Program-made: the position numbers and the translations under genes
Shown: piece after piece, positions 51,667 through 51,807 of the stretch
How the letters are laid out: each line of letters opens with the position of its first letter
Position numbering within the stretch: position 1 is the stretch's first letter
From: Sorex araneus
Taxonomy: Eukaryota > Chordata > Mammalia > Eulipotyphla > Soricidae
Assembly (NCBI RefSeq): GCF_027595985.1
Contig: NC_073306.1
Location: 100,475,426 to 100,539,425 of the forward strand
Length of the DNA: 64,000 nt
Reading direction: 5' to 3'
The notes under the pieces: generated by a model
Seen by the model: the letters and a program-made list of their open reading frames with translations, nothing else
Told to the model about the DNA's origin: nothing
Databases searched by the model: none

Positions 51667-51807
51667 CTAAGAAGTTATAACAACATACATAATAGTCATT
51701 AAGTCAACAAAGATAACAAACAGAATTTTGAGAAGTCTTCCCACAATTTCATCCTCCAGACTTGTGGGGGCAGTCGTGGAAATTAATATCCAGTTTTTGC
51801 ACGTCAT
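51667..51807 (-). CDS. MRLN: Myoregulin (MRLN), SERCA-regulating micropeptide, complete
   Basis: Intact 46-codon ORF, ATG at 51805-51807 and TAG at 51667-51669. The first 20 residues read [20 protein letters not shown]. Residues 21-46 form the single membrane helix, with Arg24, Lys27, Leu29-Phe30, Phe33, Asp35, Tyr41 and the C-terminal ITS ending. Length and sequence match mammalian myoregulin, the skeletal-muscle sarcoplasmic-reticulum peptide that binds SERCA1 and lowers its Ca2+ uptake, related in design to phospholamban and sarcolipin. Differences from human as I remember it fall mainly at Cys3, Ala13, Thr15, Met37-Thr38 and Met40; the helix core is kept. Start context has G at -3. Just upstream on the minus strand is tcttttctttttctccag|GGAACTG, an excellent acceptor (AG at 51828-51829), so this is a terminal exon with 20 bases of 5' UTR, as in human where the whole ORF sits in one exon. 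AATAAA follows in the 3' UTR. No break. Confidence 0.97.

Follow-up and report, generated by a model that had tools for sequence, protein, structure and literature searches.

In mouse and human, myoregulin (MRLN) binds and inhibits SERCA in the sarcoplasmic reticulum, and knock-out mice have better SERCA-dependent calcium handling and exercise performance (PMC8396278; PMC12815910). The first of these papers models Arg24, Lys27 and Tyr41 of MRLN as contacts with SERCA, and presents as disputed whether MRLN alters calcium affinity or only the maximal rate (PMC8396278). In horse and rabbit muscle MRLN transcripts lie far below those of SLN (PMC7711957), so the weight of MRLN in shrew muscle cannot be assumed. 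A literature search found no paper combining myoregulin and the shrew, and among the matches listed none pairs myoregulin with Eulipotyphla.

The window analysed here (the whole stretch of Sorex araneus DNA, 64,000 nucleotides) contains a short minus-strand reading frame that runs from ATG to TAG over 46 codons plus the stop. With a probability of about 0.96, positions 51807-51667 hold the intron-bearing shrew orthologue of mammalian MRLN, working by the known myoregulin mechanism.

51667..51807, minus strand: MRLN (myoregulin) CDS, 46 codons plus TAG, placed by translation and 60 homologues

The 46-residue peptide was searched against 5.8 billion proteins, in a database clustered at 90% identity (so a cluster listed here may contain an identical sequence of another shrew) and with hits restricted to proteins 0.55 to 1.75 times as long as the query, so that longer isoforms are unseen. 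This gave 60 matches with E-values from 1.1e-20 to 4.8e-12. A descriptive name is attached to 53 of them, always myoregulin, Mrln or, in one homologue, long intergenic non-protein coding RNA 948, the old name of myoregulin; for one of the 53 a second source gives 'hypothetical protein', and the other 7 are unnamed. The matches cover 100% of the query in 59 cases and 96% in the other, at 76-98% identity. The best is the annotated myoregulin of Suncus etruscus (P0002), with 45/46 residues identical (E 1.1e-20). The MRLN of the rhinoceros shares 43/46 residues with the window peptide and that of the mole Talpa 41/46.

Short reading frames are common in any window, and a frame of 46 codons could in principle be a product of chance, but a full-length match to annotated myoregulin at E 1.1e-20 among 5.8 billion proteins refutes this, and the probability left to it is vanishingly small. 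The initial annotation had read the frame as full-length myoregulin, an identification that the 60 homologues and the exact coordinates confirm. It had also called the micropeptide hidden. Annotated myoregulins already exist for Suncus etruscus, itself a shrew, and for dozens of mammals, so the gene is neither hidden nor overlooked: it is a normal shrew myoregulin, of a kind already known.

Domain and structure searches with the peptide returned little. Pfam gave nothing meaningful (top model RALGAPB_N, E 0.12, 12.8 bits against a cut-off of 27), and phmmer against the PDB found only a designed protein (E 4.9) and no similarity to solved PLN or SLN, a yardstick of our own that is doubtful as a definition of regulins. 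Since regulins are grouped by function and topology, the membership of the window peptide among them rests on its orthology to MRLN. In the AlphaFold2 model, built from an alignment of 32 of 61 sequences, helices span residues 3-12 and 15-45. Mean pLDDT is 95, 97 and 91 for residues 21-30, 31-40 and 41-46; the first two blocks of ten residues score 57 and 70, the helix at 3-12 is of low confidence, and pTM is 0.47. The hydropathy maximum over 19 residues, 2.43, falls at residues 26-44. The peptide is thus predicted to carry a single-pass transmembrane helix, a regulin trait.

By orthology with the published mouse and human work, expression in shrew muscle, binding to SERCA and its inhibition would be expected. 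The 46-residue single-pass membrane peptide would sit in the sarcoplasmic reticulum, with residues 1 to ~16 on the cytosolic side and residues 17-46 forming a helix. This helix would occupy the inhibitory groove of SERCA through the modelled contacts Arg24, Lys27 and Tyr41, all three of which are present in the window peptide, and MRLN binding would slow calcium re-uptake in fast-twitch muscle.

The structure of the gene around the coding exon could be followed upstream and downstream on the minus strand:

51828..51829, minus strand: splice acceptor AG of the coding exon, placed by sequence and by the junction read through in P0003
53990..54063, minus strand: upstream exon, untranslated here, with NLPGIRSG in register with LPGI[KR]SG of other mammals
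53985..53989, minus strand: splice donor GTAAG, adjoining the end of the upstream exon, with an intron of ~2.2 kb to the coding exon
51534..51539, minus strand: AATAAA poly(A) signal, a signal match only, 268 bases after the ATG

The acceptor AG at 51829-51828 comes after a long pyrimidine tract, TTCTTTTCTTTTTCTCC, and the coding exon starts at 51827, 20 bases before the ATG. The clean acceptor claimed in the initial annotation is therefore present, as are the AATAAA signals it had listed, which start at 51539 and 51391 on the minus strand. It had not noticed the upstream exon. The 3' end of this exon, at 53990, was identified through the stretches that other mammals carry in extended isoforms: on the minus strand, 2.2 kb upstream of the coding exon, CTACCTGGGATTAGATCAG is followed by GTAAGAA at 53990/53989, and the encoded NLPGIRSG, which matches LPGI[KR]SG of those isoforms, stands directly before GTAAGAA. 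The degenerate pattern PGI[KR]SG plus donor has a single match in the window and none in 100 shuffles, a figure that is a description and not a blind test, since the pattern was written after the match had been seen. The 5' end at 54063 is a guess, set after a candidate acceptor tttgactcag (AG at 54065-54064). Exon 1 of MRLN was not found in the window and may lie outside it.

The coding exon sits behind an intron at the junction used in other mammals, as known here from sequence alone. P0003, an unnamed shrew-like protein of 81 aa whose contig is 957 bases long, reads LPGIRAG/NRTVVE before MTCKNW across the same junction (at the slash), as would be expected of a spliced transcript from a close relative. 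These features bear on whether the window holds an intact second MRLN, a duplicate or retrocopy, with the working gene elsewhere. A segmental duplicate would retain the intron. A retrocopy would lack it, whereas here a pyrimidine tract and AG precede the coding exon and an upstream exon with its donor lies ~2.2 kb away; the intron has been kept, so the gene is not a retrocopy, and that reading was rejected. In a tblastn search of the peptide within the window the only strong match was the reading frame itself, the next having an E-value of 0.3. That the window holds such a copy, with the working gene elsewhere, is very unlikely.

Two sets of repeats surround the MRLN exons. The first (48829-48967, 53245-53372 and 54228-54355) is 82-83% alike and the second (47289-47447 and 55130-55288) 87% alike; both are probably shrew SINEs. 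Just upstream of the coding exon stand two further repeated stretches, 51923-52022 and 52262-52347, 96% identical over 47 and 26 bases and ~330 bases apart.

Some public MRLN proteins begin with an extension that ends like LPLPGIKSG/SRSILD before the usual start Met. This extended isoform is listed for some whales, bats, cats and primates. When the final 60 bases of the upstream exon (53990-54049) are joined to the first bases of the coding exon (51808-51827, likewise on the minus strand), the frame reads ATCAECT*F*KSNLPGIRSGN*IIVDM, with three in-frame stops (asterisks). The extended isoform is thus impossible in this shrew through these two exons, whereas in P0003 the frame upstream of the ORF stays open. 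Among 11 proteins of 79 residues (55 pairs), mean identity is 71% in the extension vs 85% in the 46-residue part, which is the better conserved of the two in 53/55 pairs. In our reading the extension is 5' untranslated sequence whose frame has by chance remained open in many species; at 71% identity it is still well conserved, and it might have a role elsewhere. Its closure in the shrew is one case against the annotated extended isoforms being essential.

The three stops also show that the upstream region has changed, as might be seen if the locus were transcribed while the shrew peptide was functionless or the gene decaying. However, other mammals too show lower conservation in the extension than in the ORF, and the residues that the ORF shares with Talpa and with the rhinoceros speak against decay. 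This alternative appears extremely improbable. The initial annotation had proposed that the peptide is functional in the shrew with its helix core kept; by orthology and constraint, the MRLN peptide of the window is very probably functional, and the proposal is supported.

Constraint was assessed first of all from column counts over the 60 homologues, with none dropped and the rows placed without gaps (the tenrec row, P0061, of 43 residues, is out of register over the first 14 columns). Glu18, Glu20, Leu26, Lys27, Ile28, Leu29 and Ser46 are invariant in 60/60 homologues, Arg24 is found in 55/60 and Tyr41 in 58/60, and all of these are kept in the window. A neutral-drift simulation (3000 runs, a simple two-rate model without CpG effects) stands in for dN/dS and is weaker than it. 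With 0.1 substitutions per site, 41 or more of the 46 residues are still unchanged in 10% of runs under this model; at 0.2 the share falls to 0.1% and at 0.3 to 0/3000. Shrew and mole are presumably separated by a true neutral distance of more than 0.3 substitutions per site. With drift set to 0.02 substitutions per site, 45 residues or more are retained in 42% of neutral runs, so the near-identity to Suncus etruscus and P0003 proves little if these are close kin. The argument for constraint draws on the mole, the rhinoceros and other distant mammals, together with the assumed neutral distance. Between the window and P0003 the ORF is identical at 44/46 residues vs 8/13 upstream (counted by eye; Fisher p 0.004), a comparison that is likewise a weaker stand-in for dN/dS, with 13 upstream codons chosen because they could be aligned and the rest of the two extensions, which does not align, left out. 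A scan of a viral DNA collection for DNA of a mammalian MRLN orthologue gave 55 pattern matches and no relative.

Cys3 and Thr38 had both been put forward as differences of the shrew lineage. For Cys3 this is wrong. It is the commonest state, found in 36/60 homologues, and its carriers include both moles, elephant, sengi, tamandua, rhinoceros and most of the artiodactyls listed; hedgehog has Ser and camel Tyr at this position. Gly3 occurs in 15/60 homologues, and the 14 of these that are named are primates, rodents or a hare. Cys3 is therefore probably the older state and no novelty of shrews. When human and mouse are the only references, residue differences can pass for lineage novelties, as Cys3 did.

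For Thr38 the difference is real in shrews, but it is a conservative change from Ser to Thr that recurs outside them. Thr38 is present in the window, Suncus etruscus, P0003 and the gopher Thomomys, and Ser38 in 57/60 homologues, including moles and hedgehog; such a pattern suggests a conservative substitution dating to the shrew branch. Nothing in the sequence comparison ties it to muscle metabolism. That Thr38 and the loss of the extended isoform in the shrew adjust how strongly SERCA is inhibited to suit very fast muscle is only an outside chance.

The wider surroundings of the gene were also searched. Human MRLN presumably adjoins SLC16A9 and CCDC6. A Pfam scan of the minus strand at 1499-31500, in three frames with stops read as X, detected no exon of a neighbouring gene. 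CpG-island-like DNA lies at ~30501-31750 and 29751-30250, with GC up to 0.79, and could be the promoter of a neighbouring gene (SLC16A9 if the assumed human order holds). The window has 21 MEF2-like sites and 61 E-boxes; three of the MEF2-like sites (53173, 60589 and 63776) lie within 150 bases of an E-box, and no weight is placed on these motifs. No site in the window matches the Rev-erb motif in the form used here. NR1D1 represses the mouse MRLN gene (PMC9536258), which is of no help in placing the promoter here.

Further from the gene, a stretch at ~10399-10731 (minus strand) resembles ribosomal protein L23a: it matches two Pfam models in two frames, each under its cut-off, is broken in frame and looks like a processed pseudogene. 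ARAGORN made tRNA-like calls at 3431, 6290, 32393, 35707 and 59934, 4/5 of them Ala(tgc), and there are two weak Rfam tRNA matches in the window. The calls probably represent tRNA-derived SINEs.

As a discovery the locus carries little weight: it adds a further orthologue to a known gene that pipelines already annotate. The myoregulin of Suncus etruscus agrees with it in 45/46 residues, including Cys3, Ala13, Thr38 and Met40, and differs in having Met17 where the window has Leu17. P0003 shares 44/46 ORF residues and the splice junction, but has Val7 and Val21 and an open upstream frame. The combination of Ala13, Thr38 and Met40 is common to the window, Suncus etruscus and P0003. Mammalian MRLN (LINC00948) in general resembles the window in its length (46 residues in most), its helix core and its splice junction, and differs in carrying Ser38 (57/60) and Thr13 (35/60) in place of the Thr38 and Ala13 of this shrew.
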